From: Paraburkholderia acidisoli
GTDB taxonomy: Bacteria; Pseudomonadota; Gammaproteobacteria; Burkholderiales; Burkholderiaceae
Assembly (NCBI RefSeq): GCF_009789675.1
Contig: NZ_CP046913.1
Coordinates: forward strand, 310,001 to 374,000
Direction: 5' to 3'
Length of the DNA stretch: 64,000 nt
Part shown: piece by piece, positions 8,524-49,999 of the stretch
How the letters are laid out: each line of letters begins with the position of its first letter
How positions within the stretch are numbered: the first letter of the stretch is position 1
Notes under the pieces: model-generated
Database searches by the model: none
The model's input: only the letters and a program-made list of their open reading frames with translations
Told to the model about the DNA's origin: nothing
Program-made: the position numbers and the translations under genes

Positions 8524-8845
<322 letters not shown>

Positions 8846-11522: not shown

Positions 11523-11631
11523 GTGATTCTCCAATGCACTGCCCGCGACCAGGCAGTAAAACGGGGCCCGTATGACAGGCCCCCAGGTGATGCAGCGCGA
11601 ACCATCGTCCGTTCGCGCCGATTACGTGCAA

Positions 11632-11664: not shown

Positions 11665-11677
11665 GCGTCAATTCTTT

Positions 11678-12634: not shown

Positions 12635-12698
12635 CATGCACCTGCTGCGGACTTGGGGGGGCGAGAGGAACTACTTTTGGCGAACTGCCTGGAATTTT

Positions 12699-12775
12699 TG
12701 GCAGGGGAGGAAGGACTCGAACCCTCGCATGCCGGAATCAAAATCCGGTGCCTTGACCAACTTGGCGACTCCCCT
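12699..12775 (-). tRNA. tRNA-Gln (anticodon UUG)
   Basis: A complete cloverleaf on the minus strand. The 7-bp acceptor stem AGGGGAG / CTCCCCT has discriminator G and encoded CCA. The anticodon stem CCGGA / TCCGG encloses a TTTTGAT loop with anticodon TTG, and the T arm holds GTTCGAGTC. It lies between ispE and prs, the usual place in Burkholderia. Confidence 0.93.
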
Positions 12776-12825
12776 ACACAACTTCGAGCCTGATTGATCG
12801 GCTAGGTCCGATCAACCCTGCAAAA

Positions 12826-13716: not shown

Positions 13717-13831
13717 GATGCGGTTGAGGCGGGCCGGCGCGCGCGGGGCGCGCGTCACGGCCGTGAAGTCGGGAAAGCGGTGAAACGGCGGCGTTGAAAT
13801 CGCGGCATTGAAACATGCCGATACAGCGAGC

Positions 13832-14461: not shown

Positions 14462-16296
14462 CAGAGATCGTTGATCTGGAAGCGCTGGAGCGTCTTCAGA
14501 AGCGTGTCGTTGTCGGGTTCGAGCTTGCGGGCTTCGCGCCAGGCTTCGCGCGCGCCGTTCTGGTCGCCGTTTTTCCACAGGACTTCGCCGAGATGGGCGC
14601 CGATTTCGGCGTTCGGCTGCATCGTGTAGGCCTTGCGCAGCAGCTTGATGGCGTCGGTGTTGTCGCCCATGCGGTACTTGACCCAGCCCACGCTGTCCAT
14701 GATGAACGCGTCGTCGGGCGCGAGCGCCGAAGCTTTCTCGACCAGCTTGTCCGCCTCTTGCAGGCGCTGGCCGCGGTCGGCGAGCGAGTAGCCGAGCGCG
14801 TTGTACGCCTGCGGATTGTCGGGCTGCGTCTTGATGAGCTTGCGCAGCTGCGCTTCCATGACTTCGTAGTGGCCGTTCTTTTCGGCGGCCATCGCGTAGT
14901 CGTAGGTGAGGTCGGGATCGTCCGGGAAGTCGGCGGTCGCTTTCGCGAGACGGCCTTCGGCGTCGGTGTAGCGCTTCGCGTCGAACAGGATCGCGGCGTC
15001 GGTGCGCGCGATCAGCGCCTGGTCGCGCGGATCGTCGGTCTGGATGGCCGCGAGCTGGCGGCGCGCGTCGTCGGTCTTGCCTTCCTTGTCCAGAATCTGC
15101 GCGCGCGTGATCTGGGCGGGCACGTATTGCTGGCTGTTCGGCTGGATCTTGTCGAGCCACTTCTGCGCGCCCGCGTCGTCTTTTTGCTCGACGGCGAGTT
15201 GCGCCAGATAGATGTAAGCCTGCCCCGCGTCGGCGGTCGGGCTCTTCTCCGCGACCTGCGCGTATTGCGTCAAATACTTCTGCGCGACGTCGAACTTCTT
15301 TTCCTGCACGTTGATGAGCGCGAGCGCCATGAGCGGCATGAGGTCGTTCGCGTTGTCCTTGTGCAGGATCTCGAACTGCTTCTGCGCGTCGTCGAGGCGG
15401 TTCGCCGCGAGATAGGTTTGCGCGAGCGCGAGCCGGCCTTCGCGCGACTTCGGATTCTGCTGCACGTACTTTTCGATCGACGCGATGCCTTCGTTGCGCT
15501 CTTCCGTGCCCATTTGCGCGAGCATGAGCGCGGCGGGCAGGTAGTCGGGCTTGAGCGCGAGCGCCTGCTCGAACGACTTGCGCGCACCGGGCACGTCGTC
15601 GGCGAGCAGTTGCTGACGGCCGACGGCGAGTTGCGCTTCCGGACGGTTCATGTCGTCCTTGAGCAGCGTCTTGAGCACGTTCAGGCCGCCCACGCGGTTC
15701 GGGCCGCGCGAGATCAGCAGTTGCAGCGAGAGGATGGCCTGGCCGCGGCTGTCCGCGGGCACGCGCGCGAGTTCACGCGCGAGCAGCGGCTGGGCGTCGT
15801 CGGGCTTGCCGGCGAGCACGAGCAGCGAGGCGTCGAGCTGCGCGGCACGCTCCGAATCCGGCGCGTACTGTTGCCAGAGCTGCACGGCCGTGAGCGCGTC
15901 GGTCGGGCTTTGCGCCGCGAGCGCGATCTCGGTCGCACGCTGCGCCATGCGCGGGTCGTGCGTGTCGCGCGCGAGCGCGAGATAAGTCTGGAACGCGGGC
16001 GCGGGTTGATTGCGCTGCAACGCAACCTCCGCCGCGAGCACCTGGAAGACGACCTGGCTCGACAGCGCGACGCCCGGCAGATCCTTCTTCTCGTCCGGCG
16101 AGGCAGGCCCGAACGCGTCCGGCATGGTCACGGAAGTGTCGTCCGTGTCCGGGGACGGATCCTGTGCGTAGGCGCCCGGCGAGGTCAAGGCCCAGGCCGC
16201 GAGCACGGCCGCGCCAACCAGGCGGCGTGCGAAAGAGGCGGGCAGGCGCGGCGTGGTGAGACGCGTGGCGAACAGCTTCACGAAAGACAGTTCCAT
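14461..16296 (-). CDS. Exported TPR-repeat protein upstream of lolB
   Basis: A 611-residue protein with an N-terminal signal peptide (hydrophobic core about residues 20-38, cleavage after GAYAQ) and many tetratricopeptide repeats across the rest, such as YNALGYSLADRGQRLQEADKLVEKA and YRMGDNTDAIKLLRKAY near the C-terminus. It is probably a periplasmic or outer-membrane-associated scaffold; linkage to lolB suggests a link to envelope biogenesis. The start at 16296 (MELSFVKLF) gives a proper signal peptide; the in-frame extension upstream does not. Confidence 0.85.
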   Translation of the reverse strand: MELSFVKLFATRLTTPRLPASFARRLVGAAVLAAWALTSPGAYAQDPSPDTDDTSVTMPDAFGPASPDEKKDLPGVALSSQVVFQVLAAEVALQRNQPAPAFQTYLALARDTHDPRMAQRATEIALAAQSPTDALTAVQLWQQYAPDSERAAQLDASLLVLAGKPDDAQPLLARELARVPADSRGQAILSLQLLISRGPNRVGGLNVLKTLLKDDMNRPEAQLAVGRQQLLADDVPGARKSFEQALALKPDYLPAALMLAQMGTEERNEGIASIEKYVQQNPKSREGRLALAQTYLAANRLDDAQKQFEILHKDNANDLMPLMALALINVQEKKFDVAQKYLTQYAQVAEKSPTADAGQAYIYLAQLAVEQKDDAGAQKWLDKIQPNSQQYVPAQITRAQILDKEGKTDDARRQLAAIQTDDPRDQALIARTDAAILFDAKRYTDAEGRLAKATADFPDDPDLTYDYAMAAEKNGHYEVMEAQLRKLIKTQPDNPQAYNALGYSLADRGQRLQEADKLVEKASALAPDDAFIMDSVGWVKYRMGDNTDAIKLLRKAYTMQPNAEIGAHLGEVLWKNGDQNGAREAWREARKLEPDNDTLLKTLQRFQINDL

Positions 16297-16418
16297 GGAA
16301 TTCCGTCGAATGTTTCGGTCGATTGTAACGCGCTGGCTACAATACGCGCACAACGCGCACATCCTGATTACGCAAGTTGCAGACCATCTCCTTTCATCAT
16401 CGCGCCAGCCTGTAAGCC

Positions 16419-17249
16419 ATGCCAGAGTTGCCAGAAGTCGAGGTTACCCGAAGGGGAATCGAACCGTGGGTCGCCGGGCGCCGCGTCGAGCGCGTGGAGG
16501 TGCGCAATCCCGCACTGCGCTGGCCCGTACCGGCCACGCTCGCGCGCTCGCTACGCGGTCGCACGATCCGCTCGGTCGGGCGGCGCGGCAAATATCTGCT
16601 GTTCGAAGTCGACGAAGGCTGGTTCATCGTCCATCTCGGCATGACGGGCACGCTACGCGTGCTGCGCAATCTGCCCAAGCCGCCCGCCGCCGAAAAGCAC
16701 GATCACGTCGACTGGCTGTTCGACGACTTCACGCTGCGCTACCGCGATCCGCGCCGCTTCGGCGCCGTGCTCTGGCATCCGCGCGAGGCCGGCGACGTGC
16801 TCGGCCATCCGCTGCTCGCGAGTCTCGGCATCGAGCCGTTCACGCCCGCCTTCGACGGCGCGCTGCTGTTTCGCGAGACACGCGGCCGCAAGGTCGCGGT
16901 GAAGCAGGCGCTGCTCGCGGGCGATATCGTGGTGGGTGTCGGCAATATCTACGCGTCTGAGAGTCTCTTTCGCGCGGGTATCCGGCCGACCACGCCGGCG
17001 GGCCGCGTCTCGCTCGCGCGTTACGAACTGCTTGCGGACGCCGTGCGCGCCGTGCTCGCCTCGGCCATCGAAAAGGGCGGCAGCACGTTGCGCGACTTCG
17101 TCGGCAGCAACGGCGAGAGCGGCTATTTCCAGCTCGAATACTTCGTCTACGACCGCGCGGGCCAACCTTGCCGCGTGTGCGGCACGCCGATCAAGCAGAT
17201 CGTGCAGGGCCAGCGGTCCACTTATTTTTGTCCGCGCTGCCAGCGCTGA
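16419..17249 (+). CDS. mutM: Formamidopyrimidine-DNA glycosylase
   Basis: A base-excision repair enzyme that removes 8-oxoguanine and FaPy lesions and nicks the abasic site. The 276-residue protein starts with [15 protein letters not shown]; the N-terminal Pro is the catalytic nucleophile. It has [10 protein letters not shown] and ends with a zinc finger of the CxxC-x16-CxxC type (CRVCG ... CPRC). mutY follows 14 bp later, coupling two steps of the GO repair system. Confidence 0.96.
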
Positions 17250-17263
17250 CTCGCCTCGCATTC

Positions 17264-18394
17264 ATGTACAAAACGTCTTCCCCCAAGGTCCAACTGCCCG
17301 CCGGTACCTATCCCGCCGGTTTGCTCGCGAGCTTCGCGCCGCGCCTGATCGCATGGCAGCGCGAGCACGGCCGCCACGACCTGCCGTGGCAGAACACGCG
17401 CGACCCGTATCGCATCTGGCTCTCGGAAATCATGCTCCAGCAGACCCAGGTCTCGACCGTGATCCCGTACTACGCGCGCTTTCTCGAACGCTTTCCCACG
17501 GTCGAGGCGCTCGCCGCCGCGCCCAGCGACGACGTCATGGCGCTCTGGGCCGGCCTCGGCTACTACACGCGCGCGCGCAATCTGCATCGCTGCGCGCAGG
17601 TGGTGACGGACGAGCACGGCGGCCAGTTTCCGTCGACGGGCGAGGCGCTCGCCGAATTGCCCGGCATCGGCCGCTCGACCGGCGCGGCGATCGCCTCGTT
17701 CGCGTTCGGCGCGCGCGAGACGATCCTGGACGGCAACGTGAAGCGCGTGCTCGCCCGCGTGTTCGGCGTGGAAGGATTTCCGGGCGAAAAGCGCGTGGAG
17801 AACGCGATGTGGACGCTCGCCGAATCCATCGTGCCGGGCGCGGCCGCGAGCGACGCCGAGGTGAGCGCCTACACGCAAGGGCTGATGGATCTGGGCGCGA
17901 CGCTGTGCGGACGCGGCAAGCCCGACTGCGCGCGCTGCCCGTTTGCGGCCGATTGCGTGGCGAACGCCACGGGGCGCCAGCGCGAATTGCCGGCCGCGCG
18001 CCCGAAAAAGGTCGTGCCGCAACGGCGCACGTGGATGCTCGTGCTGATGGACGGCGACGCGGTGATGCTGGAGAAACGCCCGCCTTCGGGCATTTGGGGC
18101 GGCCTGTGGAGCCTGCCCGAAGCCGCCGACGAAGCCGCGCTCGCCGAGCGCGCGCAGGCGTATGGCGCCAGCGATGCCGCCGCGAAAGGCATTCCGCTGA
18201 TGCCGCTCACGCACACCTTCACGCACTTCAAGCTCGACATCGAACCGCGTCTGGTGGAAGTGATGCGCGACGCCGCCGCGCTGGAGGCGAACGACGGCGC
18301 CTTCGCGTGGGTGCCGCTCGCGCAGATCGACGCGTACGGCGTGCCCGCGCCCGTGCGCAAGCTGCTCGACGGCTTGCGCGGCCCGCTGCTCTAA
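17264..18394 (+). CDS. mutY: A/G-specific adenine DNA glycosylase
   Basis: Removes adenine opposite 8-oxoguanine. The 376-residue protein has the catalytic Glu in SEIMLQQTQV, a helix-hairpin-helix LPGIGRSTGAAIASFAFG, the catalytic Asp in ILDGNVKRVLAR, a 4Fe-4S ligand set C-x6-C-x2-C-x5-C (CGRGKPDCARCPFAADC) and a C-terminal Nudix-like recognition domain (GGLWSLPE, HTFTHFKL). It follows mutM closely, in an apparent two-gene repair operon. Confidence 0.95.
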   Translation: MYKTSSPKVQLPAGTYPAGLLASFAPRLIAWQREHGRHDLPWQNTRDPYRIWLSEIMLQQTQVSTVIPYYARFLERFPTVEALAAAPSDDVMALWAGLGYYTRARNLHRCAQVVTDEHGGQFPSTGEALAELPGIGRSTGAAIASFAFGARETILDGNVKRVLARVFGVEGFPGEKRVENAMWTLAESIVPGAAASDAEVSAYTQGLMDLGATLCGRGKPDCARCPFAADCVANATGRQRELPAARPKKVVPQRRTWMLVLMDGDAVMLEKRPPSGIWGGLWSLPEAADEAALAERAQAYGASDAAAKGIPLMPLTHTFTHFKLDIEPRLVEVMRDAAALEANDGAFAWVPLAQIDAYGVPAPVRKLLDGLRGPLL

Positions 18395-38399: not shown

Positions 38400-38964
38400 G
38401 AACCTGCGGGAGAAAGGGGGGCTAAACCTGCTACTATAACGACTTTTCCAGACCGCCGTTATGGCTTGCCGACGGTCTTCGAAAGGCGCCTGAACCTGCC
38501 TGAAAGCCGGTATTGGCGGGCTTTCGGCACGAGGGTCCACAGCAGGGCTACGGGAGGCTTCGGCGTCGAGACGGGTGTTGCGTCACGAGCGCGGCAACCG
38601 CCGGTCGTCGAGGGCGCTACGGGCGGCATCGTGCGCATCGTGTGATTCGCGGGCCGGGTTTGCATGGTGCTCGTGTCTCAACCCGGGCACGGTACTTTCG
38701 CAGATGGGGTGCCTCGTTCGCGTTGCAAGACCCGCGTGCTTTTGCCCGCTGTGAGCGATACGAGTGATGCACGCGATACATGCGATACACACGCGCTTCG
38801 CCTGTCTCGTCTACCGTTCGTGTTCGCGCGGCGTTCCCGTCGCATCATCCGTTATTTCGTGCCACCTTCGTTCCCGTTCATGCAAGACCGCCGCGGCAAC
38901 AACGAAGCTCGCCTTCGCCCGCTCACGTGAGCCGGCAGCGGCGAACCACATTTACCACGCTCCG
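38400..38964. other. Divergent intergenic region uvrA / MFS gene
   Basis: About 565 bp. On the minus strand TATAGT at about 38443-38448 could be a uvrA -10. No inverted repeat of the CTGT-N8-ACAG type was seen. The right half contains alternating ATGCGATAC-like sequence but no supported gene. Confidence 0.4.
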
Positions 38965-40159
38965 ATGTCCTCCAATTCACCCGCCACCTCCACACGCATG
39001 AGCGCGCCCGAAGTGCGCGCGACCGTGTCGCTCGCCGCGATCTTCGCGCTGCGCATGCTGGGCCTCTTCATGATCATGCCGGTGTTTTCGGTCTACGCGA
39101 AAACCGTTCCCGGCGGCGACAACCTGCTGCTCGTCGGCATCGCGCTCGGCGCGTACGGCGTCACGCAGTCACTCCTGTACATCTTCTACGGCTGGGTCTC
39201 CGACCGCATTGGCCGCAAACCGGTGATCGCCACGGGCCTCGTGATCTTCGCCATCGGCAGCTTCGTGGCCGCGGGCGCGCACGACATGGTGTGGATCATC
39301 GTCGGGCGCGTCATTCAGGGCATGGGCGCGGTCTCGTCGGCGGTGCTCGCGTTCATCGCCGACCTGACTTCCGAGGAGCATCGCACCAAGGCCATGGCGA
39401 TGGTGGGCGGCTCGATCGGCATGTCGTTCGCCGTGGCCATCGTGGGCGCGCCCATCGTGTTCCACTGGCTCGGCATGAGCGGCCTGTTCGCGCTGGTCGG
39501 CGTGTTCTCGATCCCTGGCCGTGGGCGTGGTGATCTGGGTCGTCCCCGACGCGCCCAGCAAACCCGTGCACGTGCGCGCGCCGTTCGCCGAGGTGCTGCA
39601 CAACGTCGAGCTGCTGCGTTTGAATTTTGGCGTGCTCGTGCTGCATGCCACGCAGACCGCGCTGTTTTTGGTGGTGCCGCGCCTGCTCGTCGACGCCGGT
39701 CTGCCGGTGGCCTCGCACTGGAAGGTGTATCTGCCGGTCATGGGCCTCTCATTCGTGCTGATGGTGCCCGCCATCATCGCCGCGGAGAAGCGCGGCAAGA
39801 TGAAGGCCGTGGTGGTCTCGGCAATCGCGCTTATCCTGATCGGCCAGTTGTTGCTCGGCTCGCTCGCGCATACATTGGCAATCGTGGCGGCGGTGCTGTT
39901 CGTGTACTTCCTCGGTTTCAACATCCTCGAGGCGTCGCAGCCTTCGCTCGTCTCGAAGCTCGCGCCGGGCAACCGCAAGGGCGCGGCCACGGGCGTGTAC
40001 AACACCACGCAGTCGCTCGGGCTCGCGCTCGGCGGCGTGGTGGGCGGCTGGCTGCTCAAGCACGACGGCGCCAGTACGGTGTTTTACGCGTGTTCGGGGC
40101 TCGTATTGTGCTGGCTTATAATCGCGGCCAATATGAAGGTGCCGCTCAAGCGCGCCTGA
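38965..40159 (+). pseudogene. MFS transporter disrupted by a single-base frameshift
   Basis: Two overlapping frames together encode one 12-helix major facilitator. The first (from MSSNSPATS) covers MLGLFMIMPVFSVYA, the motif GWVSDRIGRKPVI and continues to LFALVGVFSI. The second resumes with LAVGVVIWVVPDAPSKPV and runs to NMKVPLKRA. The junction is at 39513-39515, where one extra C in ATCCCTGG shifts the frame; removing it restores a continuous protein of about 397 residues. The gene lies between uvrA and ssb, its usual neighbours in Burkholderia, so it was functional in ancestors. A sequencing error is the main alternative. Confidence 0.85.
40117..40122 (+). promoter_or_regulatory. Candidate -10 element of ssb
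   Basis: A perfect TATAAT within the 3' end of the MFS gene, about 155 bp before the ssb start. The -35 is poor (TTCGGG, 18 bp upstream). Because the MFS reading frame is broken, an own promoter for ssb would matter. Confidence 0.4.
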
Positions 40160-40276
40160 TCCGAACCCAGCGTTCGCATTAACGACATTCGCGGAGGCGG
40201 TCCGCACCGGGCGAAAGCGCATGATGCGCGCGCCGCGCGGCCGCTCCTCTCAACGGAATCAACAGGAGAGAAATTC

Positions 40277-40822
40277 ATGGCATCCGTGAACAAGGTCATT
40301 CTCGTCGGCAACCTCGGCGCCGAGCCGGAAGTGCGCTATCTGCCGAGCGGCGACGCCGTGGCGAACATCCGCCTGGCAACGACGGACCGCTACAAGGACA
40401 AGGCGTCCGGCGAATTCAAGGAAATGACCGAATGGCACCGCGTGGCGTTCTTCGGCCGTCTCGCCGAAATCGTCTCGGAATATCTGAAGAAGGGCTCGTC
40501 GGTGTATATCGAAGGCCGCATCCGCACGCGCAAGTGGCAGGCGCAAGACGGCACGGACCGTTACTCGACGGAAATCGTGGCTGACCAGATGCAGATGCTG
40601 GGCGGCCGCGGCGGCGCCTCGGCGGGCGGCGGCGACATGGGCGACGACGGCGGCTACAGCCAGCAGTCGGCGCCGCGCGGCGGCGGCCGGGCTTCGGGCG
40701 GCGGCGGTGGTGGTGGTGGCGCACCGCGTTCGTCGGGCGGCAACGCCGGCGGTGGCGGCGGTCGTTCGAACGCGCCGGCTGGCGGCGGTTTCGACGAAAT
40801 GGACGACGATATTCCGTTCTAG
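40277..40822 (+). CDS. ssb: Single-stranded DNA-binding protein
   Basis: Essential ssDNA-binding protein for replication and repair. The 181-residue protein has an N-terminal OB fold ([48 protein letters not shown]), a Gly-rich linker and the acidic tip DEMDDDIPF that binds partner proteins. A good ribosome-binding site (ACAGGAGAG) precedes the ATG. An integrated element begins directly after its terminator. Confidence 0.96.
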
Positions 40823-40850
40823 ACCAGAAAAAACAAATTTTCTGTTGATT

Positions 40851-40885
40851 AAAGCCCGCACTCCGCGAGGAGGCGGGCTTTTTCC
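40851..40885 (+). terminator. Rho-independent terminator after ssb
   Basis: Stem AAAGCCCGC / GCGGGCTTT followed by TTTTT. It lies directly left of the element boundary. Confidence 0.85.
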
Positions 40886-40887
40886 TT

Positions 40888-40901
40888 TACCAACACTTTT
40901 T
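40888..40901 (+). repeat. Left end repeat of the element (candidate att half)
   Basis: TACCAACACTTTTT, matching 13 of 14 bases at 49881-49894 in direct orientation; both are followed a few bases later by GTGG. It starts just after the T run of the ssb terminator. Confidence 0.55.
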
Positions 40902-40956
40902 CTCGTGGTTTAATTCGTCAAAAGCTTAACCCTTACTAGGCGAAAATGGTGGGTTG

Positions 40957-42219
40957 ATGGCCGAGTACGTTGCTATGCGGGTTCGTTTTCAGAATGGAGA
41001 ACGCCTTTCGGTTCTCCAGGTTCCCTATGGACTTCCGGTCCACGAAGTTACGTTGTACCTGGACAAATACAGACGGAAGGGGCGTGCAGCAAACACCATT
41101 CACTTTGTTTGCCTGACCTTGGCATTGCTGTACCGAGAACTCGATAAAACAAAGGTGGCCCTGCTCGGGCGATTGGCCGCCGGGCATTTCCTAACTGCCC
41201 CCGAACTGAACCGGCTCGCATCTGCTGTTCAGTATCGAATGGATGACCTCGATGCGGACGAAGCAGACAAGGGCAAGTCCAATGTCATAAATCTGCTGCG
41301 AGTCCGACTCCGCCGGAAGAGTGGCGAGACGGAGCGTGAAGCGGTTGATGTTGCGACGCAAGCCTCCCGGCTCCGATACATGGCCGACTTTCTGAATTTC
41401 CTGTCGGACTATGTCGGAAGCACGCTGTCACAGTCTGAGCGCAGGTCCCTCAAGGCCGAGAAAGAAGATGCTCTTACGGCATTCCGCGCAAACATCCCGA
41501 AGGTTCCAAAGCGAGCCAAATTAAATGCCCGCGTCGGTCTGAGTGAAGAGGAGATGGAGCGAGTTCTCGCTGTCGTTCATCCCGCATCACCCAATAATCC
41601 GTGGGAGCGCGGTTTCGTCCGTCTGCGTAACTGGCTGATTGTTGTGCTCCTGCTGGCAACCGGGATGCGGCGCGGAGAACTCCTGGGGCTCCAGATTGGG
41701 GACCTGAACCCTAGCCAGCCGAAGCTGCGCATCATCCGCCGTGCGGACGCTGCAGAGGACCTTCGTCGCATTCAAGCCAATACCAAAACGAACGACCGCG
41801 AGATTGAGCTCAGACCCGCCATCATGAGGAGGCTGTGGAGCTTCATCAACACAGAACGTCGCGCAATCAAGGCAGCCCGGAAGGTTCCGCAAATCATAGT
41901 CTCTGATGAGGGCGATGCGCTATCGGAGTCCAGCATCGACAAGCTGTTCGCACAGCTGCGCACGGCGTGTCCAGGTTTGCCGGTGAGGCTGACGAGCCAC
42001 GTCATGCGTCACACCTGGAACGACCGATTCTCCGAGCAGGCCGAGGCGCTCGGGCTAACCGATACGGTCGAAGAAAAGGCCCGCAATGCCCAGCAGGGCT
42101 GGAGTGATAACTCGGCGATGGCCGCCACTTACACGCGCCGACATACCGCCCGCAAAGGGCGAGAGGTTGCACTGAAGCTGCAAGAGCGACTCGATGAAAA
42201 ACTCAAACAAGATAAATGA
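40957..42219 (+). CDS. Tyrosine recombinase A of the element (GinA-like)
   Basis: A 420-residue site-specific recombinase. The catalytic domain shows Arg I in ATGMRRGELLGLQIGDL (about residue 238), the HxxR box in SHVMRHTWNDRF (about 348-351) and a tyrosine in ATYTRRHT (about 392), all in the expected order. The N-terminal half should be the SAM-like core-binding domain. ATG 40957 is preceded by an in-frame TTG; neither has a clear ribosome-binding site. The end overlaps the next gene by 26 bp. Confidence 0.88.
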   Translation: MAEYVAMRVRFQNGERLSVLQVPYGLPVHEVTLYLDKYRRKGRAANTIHFVCLTLALLYRELDKTKVALLGRLAAGHFLTAPELNRLASAVQYRMDDLDADEADKGKSNVINLLRVRLRRKSGETEREAVDVATQASRLRYMADFLNFLSDYVGSTLSQSERRSLKAEKEDALTAFRANIPKVPKRAKLNARVGLSEEEMERVLAVVHPASPNNPWERGFVRLRNWLIVVLLLATGMRRGELLGLQIGDLNPSQPKLRIIRRADAAEDLRRIQANTKTNDREIELRPAIMRRLWSFINTERRAIKAARKVPQIIVSDEGDALSESSIDKLFAQLRTACPGLPVRLTSHVMRHTWNDRFSEQAEALGLTDTVEEKARNAQQGWSDNSAMAATYTRRHTARKGREVALKLQERLDEKLKQDK

Positions 42220-43738
42220 AGACCTCTCAACCCCACTCGCGCTTCCATTGCCGAACACAGCGTTCACACGACGGGGCATTGCATTCAATCCGAACGACGA
42301 TATTTGGGCTTGGGTTGATGGGCCGTTCGGGCTTCGCTTGGACTACCGCAGGTTCGTTGGTCAGTACAGATTCTTTCGAGAGCCATTAAAGCACGCGCTT
42401 CTGTTTTTTGCGAAAAGCAGCTCTGCGAGCCATTTGTCCAATCTCTTCCAAGAGTTCGTACACTTTCTCTCGCTCAGAGACGAGGCGATTCCTCTTCCGA
42501 CTATCACGGCTGCGGACGTTGGGAACTATGCGGCGCGCCTCGATGAGCACGAGCGATGGCGCGTGGGGAGGTTGAACGTTCTGCTACAAAAGTGGGGTGC
42601 ACTACGTATTCCCGGCGTCGAGCCTGATTGCATCAAGTATTTGCGTGAGCGGCGTAAGCCGGGCAACACTAAGGGAAAAGCAGTTCTCACCCGAGACCCT
42701 GAGGAGGGGCCTTTTACCGAAGCAGAATACACGGCGCTGTATAAGGCCGTTGACGCAGCGTATGGCACGGGTGACGTGCCCAAGTGGGTTGCCGTGCTAA
42801 CTCGGCTACTCTTTGCCTGCGGAGGTCGTATCTCACAGTATGCGTCGTTGAAAGTTAAAGACCTGACTGTCCGAGACGGCTCGTTCGCGCTTCTTCTCCC
42901 TCAAGCAAAGACGCGCGAGGCGCACGCTCGCACGTCTTTCAAAGAGTTTGATTTGAGCCCTCAGACGGGGCGGCTCGCCCAAGAGTACATCACTGACCTC
43001 AACATGTTAGGGCACGGTGACGATTCGGCACTGTTTCCAGAGAGCATCGTAATGATGCTGGGCACATCTGAAAACCGCCGTGCGGAAGCCGACCTGTTCC
43101 TTGGTCATTGCACCAGTCCCGCGCTTTCGAGAATATTTAGCAAAAGTTTGCACGCCATTGCCCCGCCTACTGAGCGCCTCGCGTTCTCGCCTATTCCAGT
43201 TGTGCCCAGGCGGTTTCGCTACACCTTCGGTGTACGCCTCGCAGAAGAGGGCGCGAGCAAGACCGTCATCGCTGACCGGCTGGGGCACGCGGACCTCCAG
43301 CACGTGGGCGTCTACGTGCAGGCTTCGCCCAAAATTGTCGAGAACATCGACAAGGCGATAGGCGCCCAACTGGCTCCTCTTGCTCGCGCTTTCAAAGGTC
43401 AGTTGGTGGAGGGGGAGGAGCATTCGACTTACAAAGACGCGCCTGGAAGCCGAATCATTGACTTTCGGGTTTCGAAGGACCCGGTCGGTAGTTGCGCTGG
43501 CAAGGGTAGCGGATGCGCCTTCAACAAGCCGGTTGCGTGCTACACCTGTTTCAAATTCGAGCCATGGCTCAATGCCCCTCATCAAAAGGTGCTTCTACGC
43601 CTGCAGGTTGAGCGCGAAAAGTGGGTAAGCGACGAGAGGCTTGCAGCAATCAACGACGACGCCATTCTGGCGGTCCAAGAGGTGATTGCTGAATGTGCCG
43701 TGGTATGGGCACAGCGTGAGCAGGAGACGACCTCGTGA
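42194..43738 (+). CDS. Tyrosine recombinase B of the element (GinB-like)
   Basis: A 514-residue recombinase. Arg I is in ACGGRISQYASLKVKDL (about 212); box II is PRRFRYTFGVRLAEEGASKTVIADRLGHADLQHVGVYVQ with Tyr near 373. The usual first His of HxxR is replaced by Arg (RRFR). After the catalytic domain a Cys-rich segment C-x6-C-x7-C-x2-C (SCAGKGSGCAFN, ACYTCFKFEP) may bind zinc. The start lies within the end of recombinase A; the end shares GTGA with recombinase C. Confidence 0.85.
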   Translation: MKNSNKINEDLSTPLALPLPNTAFTRRGIAFNPNDDIWAWVDGPFGLRLDYRRFVGQYRFFREPLKHALLFFAKSSSASHLSNLFQEFVHFLSLRDEAIPLPTITAADVGNYAARLDEHERWRVGRLNVLLQKWGALRIPGVEPDCIKYLRERRKPGNTKGKAVLTRDPEEGPFTEAEYTALYKAVDAAYGTGDVPKWVAVLTRLLFACGGRISQYASLKVKDLTVRDGSFALLLPQAKTREAHARTSFKEFDLSPQTGRLAQEYITDLNMLGHGDDSALFPESIVMMLGTSENRRAEADLFLGHCTSPALSRIFSKSLHAIAPPTERLAFSPIPVVPRRFRYTFGVRLAEEGASKTVIADRLGHADLQHVGVYVQASPKIVENIDKAIGAQLAPLARAFKGQLVEGEEHSTYKDAPGSRIIDFRVSKDPVGSCAGKGSGCAFNKPVACYTCFKFEPWLNAPHQKVLLRLQVEREKWVSDERLAAINDDAILAVQEVIAECAVVWAQREQETTS

Positions 43739-45753
43739 GCGTCGCAGTTCTCCACTTTACGCCGCGTGCTGAACTGAGGCCGCAGGTCAATCTCGAGGCC
43801 TTCATTGCGCTTTGCAGGAACTCGGACGTGCTGGGCGCGCGGGGGCAGTTCGATAAGAATGTTTGGGATGTTGGATACCTCAAAGGGCAAAACAAAGTAA
43901 ATCGGGCCGTGTTCAGCACCCTCGAAGCGTCCCGCGAAGACAAGCCCGAGCCGAGTTTGCCGCATCCGTTTCTGGACTTCGCGAAGGCGACTCTCATCTA
44001 TCTTCAAGATAAGCGGCCGGTCACCTCCAAAGGTAACCGCATCGCGGCTCTTCGATGTTTGGAGGCCGCGTTGCGAGAGTGGAGCAAGGGCTCCAGGCCG
44101 ACGGCGGTGAACCCTGATGTGCTGGACACTGCCGTGGAACTGGCCAAGAAGCAGGTTTCGCCAACAGTTGCGTACCGGATTGCAGGGCAGCTCGAGATGA
44201 TTGCGGAGCTGATGAACTCCAACGGCTTCATTTCGTTACGACATCCGTGGTTTCACGGTATGAAAAAGCCGCAGGAGCTGGGGTCCAGAATATCGAAGGA
44301 GGCCTTGGCCGCGCGACAGGAGAAGCTGCCTTCGGCAGCGGCGCTTCGCGCGCTGGCCGGCATCTTCCATCAGGCTACTGAAACGCCGGATTTGCTGGTG
44401 TCCAGCTACACCGCGTTGATGGTCTGTGCGCCAGAACGTATCAATGAGGTTCTCAGGCTGCAGCGCAATTGTATCGTTGAGGGAGAAAGCGAATTTCTCG
44501 GCAAGCTAGGGGTGCGATGGCCAGGTTCCAAAGGATTTGACGACACAACGAAATGGCTTCCGTCCGAGATGGCGCCGGTCGCCAGGCAGGCCGTCGCGAA
44601 CCTGCTAAAGGTGACCGCGTCGGCGCAGCAGATTGCAACTTGGTACACCGCAAACCCTGGGAAGCTGTACCTGCATGAGGGTGCAGCGCACCTCCGTGAC
44701 CAAGAGGTGCTGACAGCCGAGGAGCTGGGGTTAGTCTTATGGGGCGACGGCACTACGAAGAAGTCGAGGAACTCCGCGAGCACTTGGGCACGAACCAATC
44801 AACTTGCCGGAGTGCCGCTGAGCGGCCGCCGGACTGGTTACCGTTTCGCCGATGTGGAGCGTGCGGTGGTCGCGATGCTACCGGCAACGTTTCCCTATGT
44901 TCCGGGAGCCCCCGAGCTCCTTTGTGAAGACGCGATGGCTCTTGTAAAGACCCATGAGGTGCATTCTCGGAAGGCAAGTTACCTCTGCATGTTCAGCTGC
45001 GTCGACTACAGCACTATCTTGAACCGCCTCGGTGGCCGGGACGACCTTACCGCCATCTCCATCTTTGAGCGTTTCGGCTACACGGAAGACGACGGCTCGC
45101 CTATCGAACTTGCGAGTCATAGCCTGAGACACTATCTGAATATGCTCGCCCAGATGGGCGGCCTCAGCAGCACAGAGATTGCCATCTTCTCTGGACGCAA
45201 GGACGTGAAGCAGAACCGCGCCTACGACCACATGAGTTCGGACGAGGTGCAGGCGCCCATCAGTGCGGCTCTGAAGGCCGGGTTCACTTCGAATTTGGTG
45301 GCCAAGGGCGGACGGGAGCTCATCTTACGCAGTGAGTTCCAGGGAATTGGTATCGTCGCCGCCCACACAACCGAGTACGGCTGGTGCACCCACAACTTTG
45401 CCAGCGAACCTTGCCAGATGTACCGCGACTGCATGAACTGTGAGGAGCAGGAGTGCGTCAAGGGCGAAAAACACAAGGAAGCCAATCTTCGTTTGCTGAA
45501 GGGCGAGACGGAATACCTGCTCGGCCAGGCTCGAGAAGCCCTGAGCGACGAGGAGTTCGGCGCCGACAATTGGGTAAAGCATCAGTCCCAGACGCTTGAG
45601 CGAGTCAATGCCATGCTGTCCATTCTGGAGGACCCATCGGTGCCGCTTGGCGCTCGAATCCGGCTCGACCTGGCCAACGCTCCGCTCATCTCCGATGCCA
45701 ATGCGCGACCCGTCAACGTCCTCAAGAACACTGAGCGAAACGTGCTGCCATGA
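43735..45753 (+). CDS. Tyrosine recombinase C of the element (GinC-like)
   Basis: A 672-residue protein, the largest of the three. Arg I is in CAPERINEVLRLQ (about 235), HxLRH in SHSLRHYLNMLAQMGG (about 461-465) and Tyr in RAYDHMS (about 496). The C-terminal part carries a Cys/His cluster (WCTHNF, EPCQMYRDCMNCEEQEC), a probable zinc site. The GTG start overlaps the previous stop (GTGA). Long N-terminal region (about 1-200) has no recognised domain beyond helical content. Confidence 0.85.
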   Translation: MSVAVLHFTPRAELRPQVNLEAFIALCRNSDVLGARGQFDKNVWDVGYLKGQNKVNRAVFSTLEASREDKPEPSLPHPFLDFAKATLIYLQDKRPVTSKGNRIAALRCLEAALREWSKGSRPTAVNPDVLDTAVELAKKQVSPTVAYRIAGQLEMIAELMNSNGFISLRHPWFHGMKKPQELGSRISKEALAARQEKLPSAAALRALAGIFHQATETPDLLVSSYTALMVCAPERINEVLRLQRNCIVEGESEFLGKLGVRWPGSKGFDDTTKWLPSEMAPVARQAVANLLKVTASAQQIATWYTANPGKLYLHEGAAHLRDQEVLTAEELGLVLWGDGTTKKSRNSASTWARTNQLAGVPLSGRRTGYRFADVERAVVAMLPATFPYVPGAPELLCEDAMALVKTHEVHSRKASYLCMFSCVDYSTILNRLGGRDDLTAISIFERFGYTEDDGSPIELASHSLRHYLNMLAQMGGLSSTEIAIFSGRKDVKQNRAYDHMSSDEVQAPISAALKAGFTSNLVAKGGRELILRSEFQGIGIVAAHTTEYGWCTHNFASEPCQMYRDCMNCEEQECVKGEKHKEANLRLLKGETEYLLGQAREALSDEEFGADNWVKHQSQTLERVNAMLSILEDPSVPLGARIRLDLANAPLISDANARPVNVLKNTERNVLP

Positions 45754-46184
45754 AGAAGACTCGCGCGCCCGACCTGACCGAAGAGCGAATCAAGGTCGTA
45801 ATCGATATCCTTGACGGTTGGACGGGCAAGCTCACGTGGGACTTGCTGCTAGACGCAGTGGAGGAGGCCTCCGGCGTCAGGTATTCACGCTTCACGTTTG
45901 CAGAGTATGCGGAAATAGCCAACGCCTTCTCGCTCAAGAAGGATGCGCTACGCGGTACGTGGAAGGGCGAACCTAGTCAGCCTCGGGATGAGCGGGTCCG
46001 GGCAGCGCTGGAGCAAGCGGCCCGCTACAAGGCCAAGGTAGAGCGCCTGGAGAAGGAGAATCAGCTACTCCTCGAGCAGTTCGTCACGTGGGCAACCAAT
46101 GCTGAGCGGAAAGGCGTGACGATGGCTATGCTCAATGCCCCGCTGCCCAAGCCCGAACGGGACCGAACCAAAAGGGTGAAGTGA
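45750..46184 (+). CDS. Small putative DNA-binding protein of the recombinase operon (GinD-like)
   Basis: A 144-residue protein. The N-terminal half is helical and may form a helix-turn-helix-like fold; residues about 85-118 (RVRAALEQAARYKAKVERLEKENQLLLEQF in part) are a heptad-patterned coiled coil. The tail is basic (RDRTKRVK). In GInt islands the fourth gene is a small helix-loop-helix-type protein needed for integration and excision, and this gene holds that place. Overlap with recombinase C is 4 bp (ATGA). Function inferred from position. Confidence 0.7.
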   Translation: MKKTRAPDLTEERIKVVIDILDGWTGKLTWDLLLDAVEEASGVRYSRFTFAEYAEIANAFSLKKDALRGTWKGEPSQPRDERVRAALEQAARYKAKVERLEKENQLLLEQFVTWATNAERKGVTMAMLNAPLPKPERDRTKRVK

Positions 46185-46624
46185 TGGCGAGCGGACAGCA
46201 ACTGGCGGAAGAAAACGTCCGGAAGTTTGCGACCTGGGCTGCTTCGAAAACGGATGAGGACTTCCGTAACATGGTGGCACGTGGAGTCCTGTCACGGACG
46301 GAAATTGCTGCCGAATGTGGTTTTGCCAAGTCGGCGCTGGCACAGAATCCTCGCATACGCGATGCGCTGAAGGCTCTCGAGACATCGCTGCGAGAGCGTG
46401 GCGTGCTCCCGCCTGTCGCGTCGGTTGGGGAATCGGAGGCTGACGCAGCCATTCCGGTGCGACGAGTTGAACCCATGCGTGCAGCGCGGGATGCGGAGCG
46501 TCTGTCGCGGTTGGAGCAAGAAAACGCTAGCCTGCGCGCGGAAAACGCCGAGCTTAAGCGGCTGTTAGCTCGCTTCTCAGTGCTGCAGGACGCCTTGGCT
46601 GAGACCGGGAGGCTGCCTCGATGA
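46184..46624 (+). CDS. Small HTH/coiled-coil protein of the element (VPA1267-like)
   Basis: A 146-residue protein. It opens MASGQQLAEENVRKFATWAASKTDEDF, followed by a possible helix-turn-helix LSRTEIAAECGFAKSALAQN (about 36-55) and ends with a leucine-zipper-like coiled coil (SRLEQENASLRAENAELKRLL). From memory it resembles the VPA1267 family found next to multi-recombinase elements; this was not checked by search. The ATG has AGGG 7 nt upstream; a GTG one codon earlier is also possible. Both ends overlap neighbours. Confidence 0.65.
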   Translation: MASGQQLAEENVRKFATWAASKTDEDFRNMVARGVLSRTEIAAECGFAKSALAQNPRIRDALKALETSLRERGVLPPVASVGESEADAAIPVRRVEPMRAARDAERLSRLEQENASLRAENAELKRLLARFSVLQDALAETGRLPR

Positions 46625-48864
46625 CGGAAGCCGTCACGGTGACGCTCCGGGTAACAGGCGTGCGCTCGCAGAATCCTCGCGGCTTCGGCGGTGCAATCTT
46701 CACCGGCGTTCCAATCGACGCGACCGGTTCAGTTCCTGACACGCGTGCGTACGTCGTAATCAAGGCTACCCGGACGGCGCTAGGCACCACGCGTGTGGAG
46801 CGCGGCCAGTGGTGGCATGTTAGCGGTCCGGTTACCGAGCGGCGTGTCGTCGTCGACGGCTTCGAGCTGCTTGAGCGGCAGGTGGAAGCTGCCGTCGTTC
46901 ATCTCGCGATGCCCGCCGGCGAGCACATCATCAAATATATAGCCGATAACCCCGCGTTTGAGGGCCTCGGTTCAGTCAAAGCGCGTCGGCTGTGGGAGCG
47001 ATTCGGCGAGCGCCTGTATTCCATCTTGGACGCGGGAGATGCGTCGACGTTAGTTGACGTGTTGACTGACGACGCCGCGCAGACTCTGGTCAACGCCTGG
47101 GCCGAGCACGGCCAGTCGCAGACACTTCAGTGGTTGCAGGTGCATGGCTTTGACTTGAGCGTCGGTCGCAAGGTATCGAGGTACTTTGGCCTCGAGGCGC
47201 AGGCCCGCATCGAAGAGGACCCTTACCGCCTCCTTTCTTTCCTCGGCAAATGGACAGATGTCGACCGGCTGGCGATGACGCGATTTGGCGTTTCGGCGGA
47301 TGACCCGCGACGCCTGCGCGGCGCGGTCGAGGAAGCATGCTACCGGATGTTTGCCAATGGCCATACGGCCATGCTCAAGTCTGACCTCGAGAAGCTGGTG
47401 GTCCCGCTTCTCGGCGAATCACGAGGCGTGTCCTGGCGAAGCCTGCTTGCCGAAGCTATGGACGAGGGTTTGGCCAATGGCAGCGTCGTGGAGAGCGCCT
47501 TCGGGTTGCAGCCGCTAGGCGCGCTGGTCATGGAGCGGCAGGTGGCCAAAGCGATTTGCGAACGGCTGACAAGCGATGCGCAGCAACTGCTCGACCGCGC
47601 TGCAGTAGACCGGGTAATCGCGGCGGTTCAGGCTGAAGATGGAATTAGCCTGAATCAGGAGCAGCAGGCCGCCATCCATCTGGCTGCGGAGCAAGCGTTC
47701 GCTTGCATCACGGGTGGGGCTGGTGTTGGCAAAACAACCGTCCTCAAGTCGCTCTACCGTATCTACGACGGTTCGGGTGTAAGAGTTCTCCAGGTCGCTC
47801 TCGCGGGACGTGCCGCCAAACGAATGCAGGAGGCAACCGGCCGCGCGGCCGTGACGATTGCTAGCTTCCTGAAGGCGATGCGAGATGCTGACTTCGACGG
47901 CCCCACCGTGCTCGTTATCGATGAAGCGAGCATGGTCGATATCGTTTCGATGAGTCGCATCTGCGCAGCGTTGCCCTCCCATGTGCGTTTGTTGTTGGCT
48001 GGTGACCCTCATCAATTGATGCCCGTTGGACCCGGGTTGGTTCTTCATTGCCTCGTGCAACTGGCGGCTATCCCAGCCATAGAGCTGAAGACCGTGAAGC
48101 GCTATGGCGGTGAGATAGCCAGGGTGGCGTCGGCGGTTCGTGCCGGACACTGGCCCACTGTAGCAACCGACCACACCGCCCCGGTCGCCTTCATTCCATG
48201 CGACGACCGGCAGATTGCCGAACTGGTTGTCCAACTGTATGCCATGGACCCTGAGCGCACTCAGGTGTTGTCTCCGTTGCGTAATGGGCCGGCGGGAACG
48301 AAAGTTCTAAATCAGCTGTGTCAGGAGCGCTTCACAAATGGGTGTGCTGCAGTAACTCGGTGGAATGACGAGTTCGAGAGGCCGGAGCACTGCGGGTTCA
48401 ATCAGGGCGATGTGCTCTTATGTACGCGCAATATGTGGGACAAGGCATTGCAAAACGGGTCGCTCGGTAAAGTCATGCGCGTAGAAGCCCCGCCCGTGGA
48501 GGCGTCAGCACTGTCGCCAGCCGTTCTCGCTTGGGTGGAATGGGACGACGGCATTCTCCGCGCGTTCACGGAGGACATGCTCGAGGATATCGAGCTGGGC
48601 CGTGCAGTTACCGTCCACAAGGCTCAAGGCTCGCAATGGCCTCGAGTCATCGTGCCCGTGACGGATTCGCGGCTCTTGGACCGCACGTTGCTCTACACCG
48701 CTATCACCCGCGCGCAGGTGCAGGTCCTACTGGTGGGCAATATGGCCGCCGCGCGCAAGGCAGTGCTTGGACCTCCCAAGGCACATACTCGCAAGGTCGC
48801 ATTGGAGCAGGCTCTAATGAGATACCTTGAGCCTATCGAAGTCAGTGCGCCTGAGACTGCGTAA
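46621..48864 (+). CDS. RecD2-like superfamily 1 DNA helicase
   Basis: A 747-residue helicase. An N-terminal OB-like domain (about 1-100) is followed by helix-hairpin-helix sequence (FEGLGSVKARRLWERFG, about 113-130), Walker A ITGGAGVGKTTVLKS (about 363), Walker B VLVIDEASMVD (about 430), LAGDPHQLMPVG and a C-terminal motif VTVHKAQGSQWPRV with TAITRAQ. The order matches RecD2/TraA-type 5'-3' helicases, but it is not a housekeeping recD. Its ATG overlaps the stop of the small upstream gene (ATGA), with GGGAGG as ribosome-binding site. Confidence 0.85.
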   Translation: MTEAVTVTLRVTGVRSQNPRGFGGAIFTGVPIDATGSVPDTRAYVVIKATRTALGTTRVERGQWWHVSGPVTERRVVVDGFELLERQVEAAVVHLAMPAGEHIIKYIADNPAFEGLGSVKARRLWERFGERLYSILDAGDASTLVDVLTDDAAQTLVNAWAEHGQSQTLQWLQVHGFDLSVGRKVSRYFGLEAQARIEEDPYRLLSFLGKWTDVDRLAMTRFGVSADDPRRLRGAVEEACYRMFANGHTAMLKSDLEKLVVPLLGESRGVSWRSLLAEAMDEGLANGSVVESAFGLQPLGALVMERQVAKAICERLTSDAQQLLDRAAVDRVIAAVQAEDGISLNQEQQAAIHLAAEQAFACITGGAGVGKTTVLKSLYRIYDGSGVRVLQVALAGRAAKRMQEATGRAAVTIASFLKAMRDADFDGPTVLVIDEASMVDIVSMSRICAALPSHVRLLLAGDPHQLMPVGPGLVLHCLVQLAAIPAIELKTVKRYGGEIARVASAVRAGHWPTVATDHTAPVAFIPCDDRQIAELVVQLYAMDPERTQVLSPLRNGPAGTKVLNQLCQERFTNGCAAVTRWNDEFERPEHCGFNQGDVLLCTRNMWDKALQNGSLGKVMRVEAPPVEASALSPAVLAWVEWDDGILRAFTEDMLEDIELGRAVTVHKAQGSQWPRVIVPVTDSRLLDRTLLYTAITRAQVQVLLVGNMAAARKAVLGPPKAHTRKVALEQALMRYLEPIEVSAPETA

Positions 48865-48911
48865 AATCGGTCAAAATTTCAAATCTGACATTTGCATAAA
48901 CGGGAGCTTCG

Positions 48912-49574
48912 ATGGAGTCGGTCAAGCACAAGGAACTGATTATTGGGTGCATCCGCCATCATTTCGACGGAGCGCTTCAGATGGTGAAAAATGTCGGTGG
49001 AGGCAGTGGCAAGGCCCCTCCGGCAATCGCGAACATTAAGTCTAGCCTTGTCAATGCCGCAGGTGGTGTCGACGCGTGTATCTATGACGACCACGACCTT
49101 TCCTCCAAGCTACTGGAGCCAGGGGTAGATTTGGCCTATCGCAGCGTCATTGTGAGCGACCTCAAGCGTGACGACGAATGGGTGGCTGTGCTTGCAGTAG
49201 GCTTGACCGAACTGGACGAGCATTCGAGAAAGGTGGTGCTGTCACACGTGCCGAAGCGCGACGGTGGTGAAGCCAGCCCTCGACGGCTCTTGGTGTTTAT
49301 TGCTTGTGCTGACGGGACAGTCACGATGAATCCGCGCTTCGTGATTGCGAGCGCAGTCGATAACAACTCGATTGCACTTTCACCGTGCGTGTTTCAATGG
49401 GCTATCCCCCAGCCCAACGGTCAGTCAGCGGTCGTGGGACGTATCGCACCGAGTGAACTGGGCCAGGCGTTTCTCGACTGGGCAGCTCTTATGCTTTCAG
49501 TGCTCGATAGCTCGCACGCCGCTCGATTGCACGAGGACCATGTGCGTGGCGAGACCCCGGGTGCGATTCAATAA
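48912..49574 (+). CDS. Orphan protein at the 3' end of the element
   Basis: A 220-residue soluble protein that is not recognised. No signal peptide, membrane segment or catalytic motif is obvious; it looks like a mixed alpha/beta fold (VIVSDLKRDDEWVAVLAVGLTELDE, RRLLVFIACADG). The ATG follows GGGAGCTTCG. A 47-bp gap separates it from the helicase, so it is likely to be on the same transcript. Possible cargo gene; no function is proposed. Confidence 0.6.
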   Translation: MESVKHKELIIGCIRHHFDGALQMVKNVGGGSGKAPPAIANIKSSLVNAAGGVDACIYDDHDLSSKLLEPGVDLAYRSVIVSDLKRDDEWVAVLAVGLTELDEHSRKVVLSHVPKRDGGEASPRRLLVFIACADGTVTMNPRFVIASAVDNNSIALSPCVFQWAIPQPNGQSAVVGRIAPSELGQAFLDWAALMLSVLDSSHAARLHEDHVRGETPGAIQ

Positions 49575-49612
49575 ATGAGACGTATCCACCTCTGCGCGAT
49601 AACGCTGAATGG

Positions 49613-49652
49613 GTCAAGGGCGGGCGTTAGCCCGGCGCAGCGGACCCTTGAC
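49613..49652. repeat. Nested palindrome in the element tail
   Basis: Outer arms GTCAAGGG / CCCTTGAC enclose an inner hairpin CGGGC-GTTA-GCCCG. No T run follows, so it is not a simple terminator. Confidence 0.7.
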
Positions 49653-49675
49653 GCGCGATGGGATTGATAGGCTGA

Positions 49676-49718
49676 GGCATGGTTGGAAGCTCGGCATTAT
49701 CGGGCTTCCAACCATGCC
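49676..49718. repeat. 15-bp perfect inverted repeat in the element tail
   Basis: Arms GGCATGGTTGGAAGC and GCTTCCAACCATGCC separated by 13 bp. There is no T run after it. Confidence 0.85.
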
Positions 49719-49880
49719 ATACATACGCGTTCTTGGCGTCTATAGCCGGGCAGGTACTACCCACAAAGTTGCAGTCTGACGCTCGGTATGCCCTGAAAAT
49801 GGCCTACGAGAACAACCCTACCAACAATCCTGTTTGGTGGGACTGCCGGAAAGCCTTTTACTCACTCACATCGAGCCATC

Positions 49881-49894
49881 TACCAACATTTTTT
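49881..49894 (+). repeat. Right end repeat of the element (candidate att half)
   Basis: TACCAACATTTTTT, direct counterpart of the repeat at 40888. Another TACCAACA lies 62 bp inside the element at 49819 as one arm of an inverted repeat with TGTTTGGTGGG. Confidence 0.55.
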
Positions 49895-49956
49895 AGTGGG
49901 GATAACCGTTTTAAGCCGCTTCGTGGCGCCGCTTGCGGCGCGGCGGCAAGATCATG

Positions 49957-49999
49957 AGCCCCGGATTCCGGCCACCTGGCCTGGCATCCGGGGCTTTTT
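49957..49999 (+). terminator. Rho-independent terminator right of the element
   Basis: Stem AGCCCCGGAT / ATCCGGGGCT with a 19-nt internal region, followed by TTTT. It faces rightwards and lies in host sequence. Confidence 0.75.

Follow-up and report, generated by a model that had tools for sequence, protein, structure and literature searches.

A probable GInt-type island at the end of ssb in Paraburkholderia acidisoli, with a VPA1267 and RecD-like helicase gene pair behind its recombinase operon

Introduction

What kind of element has settled behind ssb in Paraburkholderia acidisoli, where does it begin and end, and how might it move? These questions arise from a 64,000-nucleotide stretch of the 7.9-Mb genome of this bacterium (contig NZ_CP046913.1, positions 310,001 to 374,000 of the forward strand; hereafter the window), in which an initial annotation made from the sequence alone had proposed a small GInt, an island with an operon of three tyrosine recombinase genes and a gene for a small protein. 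GInts, their ssb target and their diverse cargo are already published (Bardaji et al. 2017, PMC5385486). All four gin products are reported to be needed for both excision and integration, with cuts staggered by 6-7 nt, and in several GInt strains circles were found and no empty donor site (PMC5385486). We compared the window with relatives among GTDB genomes and PLSDB plasmids, and set it against published GInts by architecture and description.

Results

A probable island of the GInt type

The element of about 9.1 kb behind ssb is, with good confidence, a GInt-type integrative island. Several features back the initial proposal of a GInt at the small end of the size range: the architecture of the operon, the order of the genes, an insertion site at the end of ssb, direct repeats that are imperfect, and a 3′ end that is non-coding. 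Seven plus-strand genes follow ssb, all with open reading frames (ORFs), and the first six overlap end to start (Table 1). As annotated, the first four encode three large recombinases (420, 514 and 672 residues) and a 144-residue protein, in the GInt order ginA-ginB-ginC-ginD, and the cargo genes (46181-49574) begin at the end of ginD. The assertion that nearly the whole length is taken up by this operon does not hold, given that ginABCD covers about 5.2 of the 9.1 kb and that three overlooked genes account for 3.4 kb.

The catalytic residues noticed initially (R...HxxR/RxxR...Y) are borne out in all three recombinases. GinA and GinB match Phage_integrase above its cut-off; R, HxxR, W and Y are kept in 72-73 of 73 aligned GinA sequences, and RxxR replaces HxxR in 74 of 74 GinB sequences. 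GinC, which has no match in Pfam or NCBIfam, belongs to an alignment of sequences of at least 600 residues (the divergent gin-like operons L065-L072 lie outside it) in which R235 (in APERINEV), H462, R465, R488 and Y497 are invariant in all 83 relatives. As judged from this alignment, these GinC proteins keep the box I arginine, contrary to the GInt paper, which calls this first catalytic arginine missing (PMC5385486).

The lower GC content of the element (0.52-0.63, as opposed to mostly 0.62-0.74 in the flanks) also agrees with the initial description and differs from the host-like composition that would have counted against an island. Nor are the same genes a fixture of sister strains at this place: a GinC match was obtained in 12 of 98 genomes, own included, just four of them close and one of those four broken, and in one relative (G014) ssb adjoins the gene that forms the right flank in the window, as far as gene order goes. 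A divergent gin-like operon was also observed behind ssb (L065 and L066 in genome G036, L068 in G022), with about 23-31% identity to ginA-C and an ssb-ginA distance of 227-255 nt; in G036 it gave equal alignment scores on C1 and C3.

A VPA1267 and helicase gene pair behind recombinase operons

Directly behind ginD, the window encodes a VPA1267-family protein and a superfamily 1B (SF1B) helicase. The model of the former (pTM 0.45) consists of a helical N-terminal domain, a long helix and a conserved TGRLPR tail, a predicted fold compatible with a DNA-binding partner. The latter does not reach the TIGR01448 equivalog cut-off of 500 and is RecD2-like, not RecD2 proper; the key residues of its motifs are retained by 38 or 39 of the 39 sequences compared, a set that leaves out the divergent rows L131 and L133 and four plasmid rows. 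RecD2 enzymes are 5′-3′ helicases.

In 79 named loci, found with GinC among the best 80 of 276 relatives, the helicase is the second gene after ginD for 25 of the 69 ginD genes with at least 2800 nt downstream. Counted with repeat entries of a record, the VPA1267 start lies at -25 to +21 nt relative to the end of ginD in 34 of 35 places; the exception, at -148, is a mechanically called start that makes the gene too long. Of 369 genomes sampled from the class, none but the window's own exceeds the VPA1267 cut-off; 144 Paraburkholderia genomes have 19 such places in 13 genomes (own included; eight further genomes with weaker matches fall outside the count). One place is interrupted (G008), and the 18 intact copies all adjoin a recombinase operon and a helicase gene: ten lie by ginABCD and eight by a trio of the gamma-mobile-trio (GMT) type. 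GMT islands are reportedly the subject of Mahata et al. 2024. Two of the eight trios were run against NCBIfam, one exceeding all three GMT cut-offs and the other that of GmtX only, with GmtY and GmtZ matches below cut-off; the remaining six were assigned from the sizes and order of their ORFs and from those N-termini that could be seen.

Among plasmids, 54 records gave a match to VPA1267, and 32 of the 40 listed matches overlap an annotated gmtX; Vibrio pMAO6 carries gmtY, an integrase gene, gmtX, VPA1267 and the helicase gene consecutively. A related helicase lies on a Salmonella IncC plasmid without annotated VPA1267, and rhizobial plasmids combine two recombinases (one of two plasmids also a 786-residue protein), small proteins and a helicase. 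Rhizobial and Rhodovastum plasmids (L215-L217) also hold other operons with several recombinases, accompanied by small proteins and a helicase of this kind; these may be further element types. A third kind of recombinase operon (L130 in G550, 1820-9833), with a weak GmtY match of 19.3 bits and no other GMT family match, has behind it genes for a VPA1267-like protein (32.8 bits) and for a helicase resembling RecD. One genome (G513) holds two GInts whose RecD is identical (L115 and L116), and no ssb was found directly upstream of the second copy.

Pairwise distances in 30 complete operons, which include two identical copies from one genome, are tightly correlated among the gin genes themselves (r 0.94-0.97), and less so between RecD and gin. 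In a tree of 45 RecD rows, built by quick search with SH-aLRT as its only support and containing some very long branches, the changes number 5 for GInt rows (shuffled mean 12.8) and 4 for GMT rows (shuffled mean 8.4), and the starred branches force at least 3 and at least 2 changes, respectively. These values suggest that RecD clusters by system, yet has been exchanged between GInt and GMT, and that the pair is not simply inherited together with gin.

The likeliest role of the pair, which we propose tentatively, would be a helicase function in movement of the island. It is rather more doubtful that GInt, GMT and at least one rhizobial element type draw on the pair as a common, interchangeable movement module, one that would turn strand exchange into replicative copy-out with the donor site kept. 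Four delimited Paraburkholderia elements, two from P. elongata, one from P. aspalathi and that of the window, are relevant here: the first three have less than 330 nt between helicase and right site, and the fourth has an additional orphan gene after the helicase. Several observations weigh against a movement function. A published minimal GInt moved with gin alone (PMC5385486); the pair is absent from 44 of the 69 GInt loci; two other elements (L065 and L192) seem cargo-free by their candidate right ends; and RecD distances correlate less well with those of gin (r 0.66-0.73). Only one of the five plasmid records opened has the helicase next to VPA1267: three enterobacterial records are interrupted by insertion sequences and lack an annotated helicase, and Vibrio alginolyticus pL280 has an intact GMT trio and VPA1267 with other genes in place of the helicase.

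A serious rival, plausible while still short of probable, is that the two genes are defence or exclusion cargo directed at phages or competing elements and merely ride on recombinase islands. Defence genes are among the described cargo of GMT islands (PMC12039261), and gin operons related to that of the window carry Avs4 on an Escherichia coli plasmid or a type ISP restriction enzyme on a Pseudomonas aeruginosa plasmid; exchange of the pair between gin lineages and its lack in many islands would also suit cargo. The helicase matches the PADLOC models typeIV_RecD (8e-51) and PDC-S68 (1e-44), but these matches may reflect a common helicase core, and VPA1267 has no PADLOC match. Position argues against this reading, both the adjacency of all 18 intact above-cut-off genus copies to a recombinase operon and the nearly constant spacing from ginD.

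Predicted insertion site

Comparison with relatives moves the insertion point from the T run of the ssb terminator, where it was initially placed, to the ssb stop codon. In the 79 loci, ssb lies directly upstream of 47 of the 57 ginA genes having 700 nt of upstream sequence, and 45 of these 47 ssb genes share the stop context AT.CC.TTYTRR; for 45 of 64 cases from many genera, counted with repeat entries of a record, the spacing between the ssb stop and the start of ginA falls within 126-138 nt. Plasmid ssb genes also serve as GInt targets. GInts were observed behind plasmid ssb genes of P. aeruginosa, Klebsiella and E. coli (L077, L079 and L081), with cargo including the type ISP restriction enzyme and Avs4.

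In P. elongata (L057, G018; 1835-18300), two tandem GInts of different families, each with ginABCD, VPA1267 and RecD, lie behind one ssb, and the ssb-proximal element seems to be the more recent insertion, made at the stop codon. After the first element, the sequence matches that following the ssb stop of G016, in which the search turned up no gin gene (score 114, best of 200 shuffles 27); after the second, it matches the sequence following the stop of an ssb in G036 (84, best shuffle 29), a stretch that then leads into the divergent gin-like operon. The P. aspalathi element runs into the left end of a further element, which likewise begins at the stop codon (81, best shuffle 39). Because the matches after right ends start at the ssb stop, the crossover is placed at the very end of ssb, within its final codons and the stop (CCGTTYTRR); the sequence after the stop, terminator included, is attributed to the element.

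The corresponding cores in the window, CCGTTCTAG and CCGTTTTAA, are identical at 7 of 9 positions with partial matches alongside, and form an imperfect direct repeat of the kind that flanks GInts; taken by itself, the 9-nt core falls short of the published 10-17 nt (PMC5385486). The left attachment site (attL) overlaps the end of ssb without altering the SSB product, as in six of eleven published GInts (PMC5385486). The repeats initially taken as element ends, at 40888 and 49881, do exist (TACCAACA[C/T]TTTTT has 2 matches, a number reached in 0 of 100 shuffles), and would be inner sites, not ends.

An empty site is indicated by gene order only, in a single relative: in G014, the regulator gene of the window's right flank lies about 300 nt after ssb. 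No sequence-level empty site was found for the window in relatives, and the ssb-regulator stretch of G014 has diverged beyond recognition from it. Four other relatives have 3-4 kb of other genes between the two. Two results tell against the predicted insertion: an alignment of the right flank with the sequence downstream of ssb in G014 scores no better than shuffles (37, best shuffle 47), and a search of the genus with the right flank gives, besides the window itself, nothing longer than short matches of 26-56 bases (in 18 of 144 genomes, counting its own).

Two observations concern contig ends. Assembly breaks were considered as a trace of circles, 10 of 29 cut loci ending 2750-3250 nt before ginC where 1.45 are expected; this excess is confounded and was left unused because five of the ten cut contigs start inside ssb, mostly in its low-complexity linker. 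A contig of a metagenome-assembled genome (L152) begins at the end of ssb and stops at the core of the right attachment site (attR), an extent that is no more than suggestive.

It is improbable that the island is a decayed or domesticated, immobile remnant. Decay does occur in its neighbours, since G002 has a broken ginC and lacks the pair, and G003 keeps the left end and inner sites with no gin genes in the stretch examined, and the want of an observed empty site or circular form for the window would fit as well. The window itself, however, has seven open frames, intact catalytic residues, both attachment cores and the inner sites.

Left end and terminator

The left end has a characteristic order: ssb stop, first inner site, terminator hairpin with T run, second site inverted, and a third copy at the ginA start. 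Two classes of site could be assigned to 39 of 46 left ends (14 class A, 25 class B) with patterns written after inspection of the sequences. The first site reads TGTTGRTNA in class A and TGTAAACAA in class B, and the inverted site after the hairpin TTTACCMACA and TTGTTTACA, respectively. At ginA, the class A motif occurs in 14 of 14 class A ends, three of which also have a class B match, and the class B motif in 25 of 25 class B ends, none with a class A match. A pattern-free score of the site after the hairpin against the ginA start was reached by 0 of 2000 permutations, and by 44 of 2000 within classes. Class A ends correspond to the gin clade of the window (GinC at least 61% identical to its own), and TACCMACA occurs 4 times in the window, always within the element (0 of 100 shuffles reach 4). 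The inner sites are probably recombinase-binding sites, and the copy at the ginA start would provide autorepression of the operon.

Comparison with relatives also indicates that the hairpin after ssb travels with the element, contrary to the initial statement that ssb keeps its own terminator. Thirty ssb loci of the genus were compared, one per genome, 27 of them without gin genes there by GinC search, and 23 of these 27 lack this hairpin type. The exceptions tell the other way: four GInt-free genomes (G003, G016, G017 and G029) have an element-like hairpin after ssb, which may be the scar of an element yet could be native, and a second hairpin type, which likewise stands before the divergent gin-like operon of G036 and G022, is common to five of the 23. 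If the initial boundaries were right, the element would start after the T run and the hairpin would be the host ssb terminator. The very similar hairpins of GInt-free G016 and G017, and the TACCAACA repeats at those boundary points, would fit; we nevertheless consider such boundaries very unlikely, as three related elements are followed by sequence beginning at the ssb stop codon, similar left ends lie behind ssb of other genera at a near-fixed distance, and most GInt-free loci of the genus are without this hairpin type.

Right end and remaining features

The non-coding 3′ end (49575-49905) lies in GC windows of 0.58-0.59, below the flank and not AT-rich; GInts are described as having a short 3′ end with AT-rich stretches (PMC5385486). 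The orphan gene before it was absent from the other loci scanned with a single-sequence hidden Markov model (HMM), its model has no solved-structure match at E 0.001, and most of its 13 relatives carry no source-given name. No relative compared had a match to the hairpin to the right of the element, which may be the terminator that ssb had originally. Candidate right ends in other loci were sought with a pattern that had no chance control and missed the window's own right end; it gave 13 rows, 11 of which were kept, the two in L079 being dropped for their location in transposase-like sequence. Upstream of ssb, a major facilitator superfamily (MFS) transporter gene (window 38764-40182) is apparently split between two frames near 39500, into N- and C-terminal parts.

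Table 1. Features of the island and its borders, in window coordinates.
Feature	Position	Strand	Basis
ssb, target gene; last codons and stop (ATTCCGTTCTAG) as predicted left attachment site	40277..40822	+	ORF; stop context in other loci
attL core CCGTTCTAG (predicted), overlapping ssb stop TAG 40820-40822	40814..40822	+	comparison with L057 and L058
Inner site 1, TGTTGATTAA, before hairpin	40843..40852	+	read from sequence; left-end comparison
Terminator hairpin with T run, predicted to be carried by the element	40851..40883	+	fold z -5.3 for 40820-40905
Inner site 2, TTTACCAACA, inverted relative to site 1; left repeat of the initial annotation	40886..40895	+	motif counts
Inner site 3, GGTGGGTTGATG, overlapping ginA start codon	40948..40959	+	left-end comparison
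ginA, tyrosine recombinase, 420 aa	40957..42219	+	PF00589 41 bits (cut-off 27.1)
ginB, tyrosine recombinase, 514 aa	42194..43738	+	PF00589 50.6 bits; NF041502 387.6 bits (cut-off 350)
ginC, divergent tyrosine recombinase, 672 aa, C-terminal Cys/His cluster	43735..45753	+	conserved catalytic residues in alignment
ginD, small coiled-coil protein, 144 aa	45750..46184	+	alignment with eight other GinD, 29-81% identity
VPA1267-family protein, 147 aa	46181..46624	+	NF040697 197.5 bits (cut-off 90), positions 1-143 of 143
RecD2-like SF1B helicase, 747 aa	46621..48864	+	TIGR01448 356.4 bits; PDB 3e1s E 2e-42; motifs I, II, III, V, VI
Orphan cargo gene, 220 aa	48912..49574	+	13 relatives in 5.8 billion proteins; no Pfam; model pLDDT 85.7
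Non-coding 3′ end with further putative inner sites (TACCCACA 49758; TACCAACA 49819)	49575..49905	+	motif counts
Right-end inner site TACCAACA; right repeat of the initial annotation	49881..49888	+	motif match
attR core CCGTTTTAA, predicted right boundary	49906..49914	+	comparison with relatives
Terminator-like hairpin, right flank	49957..49999	+	read from sequence; scan gave two overlapping stems 49975-49995

Discussion

Architecture, conservation of the pair and, by comparison with relatives, boundaries are read here from sequence, and the recombination, repression and helicase steps of the following scheme are conjectural. GinA, GinB, GinC and GinD would act jointly on a short site made up of the last ssb codons (Ile-Pro-Phe) and the stop. 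The SSB tail is nearly invariant among SSB proteins, because of which such a target would be available behind chromosomal and plasmid ssb genes alike and SSB would be left intact. The element would bring its own terminator between inverted recombinase sites, and the site at the ginA start would probably let the recombinases repress their own operon. Extrapolating from the GInt paper, excision of a circle would proceed by recombination of two CCGTTYTA sites. VPA1267 and the RecD2-like helicase would form a two-gene accessory behind ginD, one that also accompanies GMT-type trios; the helicase may open the strand-exchange intermediate or carry replication through it, VPA1267 being its DNA-binding partner, and so aid a copy-out movement.

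If the pair does turn strand exchange into replicative copy-out, this would explain why some GInts give circles and no detectable empty site. A helicase and a small partner directly behind two unrelated kinds of recombinase operon make a named candidate for a missing movement factor, and their sharing by GInts and a second type of recombinase trio hints at a common step in island movement. An attachment site at the stop codon is a possible reason for the choice of ssb by unrelated GInts, on chromosomes and plasmids alike, and helps to locate GInt ends by sequence.

Strand-biased circularizing elements (SEs), RIT elements and Tn554-type elements share with the window the possession of two or three tyrosine recombinases and, RIT excepted, a small partner (TnpC in Tn554), yet it is scarcely credible that the island is one of these, since its A-B-C-D order puts the most divergent recombinase third and not second as in the intA-tfp-intB-srap order of SEs, which are built of different families (PMC10214605, PMC9345347), and its recombinase sizes (420, 514 and 672 aa) and imperfect direct repeats at the end of ssb are unlike the 315-410 aa and 34-bp terminal inverted repeats described for RIT. 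As described, RIT elements also have no fourth gene and Tn554 no Tfp/GinC counterpart; direct repeats were seen at the ends of the island, where no search aimed at 34-bp inverted repeats was made. With SEs, the island further shares a possible copy-out movement. SEs copy out one strand and leave no empty site, and their authors consider that a further process is needed, which might require host and element-encoded factors (PMC10214605, PMC9345347). A helicase behind a recombinase operon would fit such a step.

GMT islands (NF040692, NF040693 and NF047926) also have a three-gene tyrosine-recombinase mobility operon, followed in some cases by VPA1267 and a RecD-like helicase. The operon of the window is different: its ginA and ginB score 13.4 and 12.2 bits against a GmtY cut-off of 340, and no GmtX or GmtZ match was found among the seven proteins of the island. 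The GMT authors may already have reported the pair. VPA1267 is unnamed in the main texts of the literature searched, and the word "helicase" is absent from the main texts of the GInt and SE papers (PMC5385486, PMC10214605, PMC9345347), as are "ssb" from that of one SE paper (PMC10214605) and "terminator" and "inverted repeat" from that of the GInt paper (PMC5385486, supplements excepted).

Published GInts remain the closest counterpart, with ginABCD at the 5′ end, cargo after ginD, a short non-coding 3′ end and attL at the end of ssb (PMC5385486). Over that account, the present comparison would add the base-level position of insertion and a terminator that travels with the element. The island differs from the GInts described there by its VPA1267-RecD pair, by its own terminator with inverted inner sites, and by the 3.4 kb of other genes that it carries within 9.1 kb.

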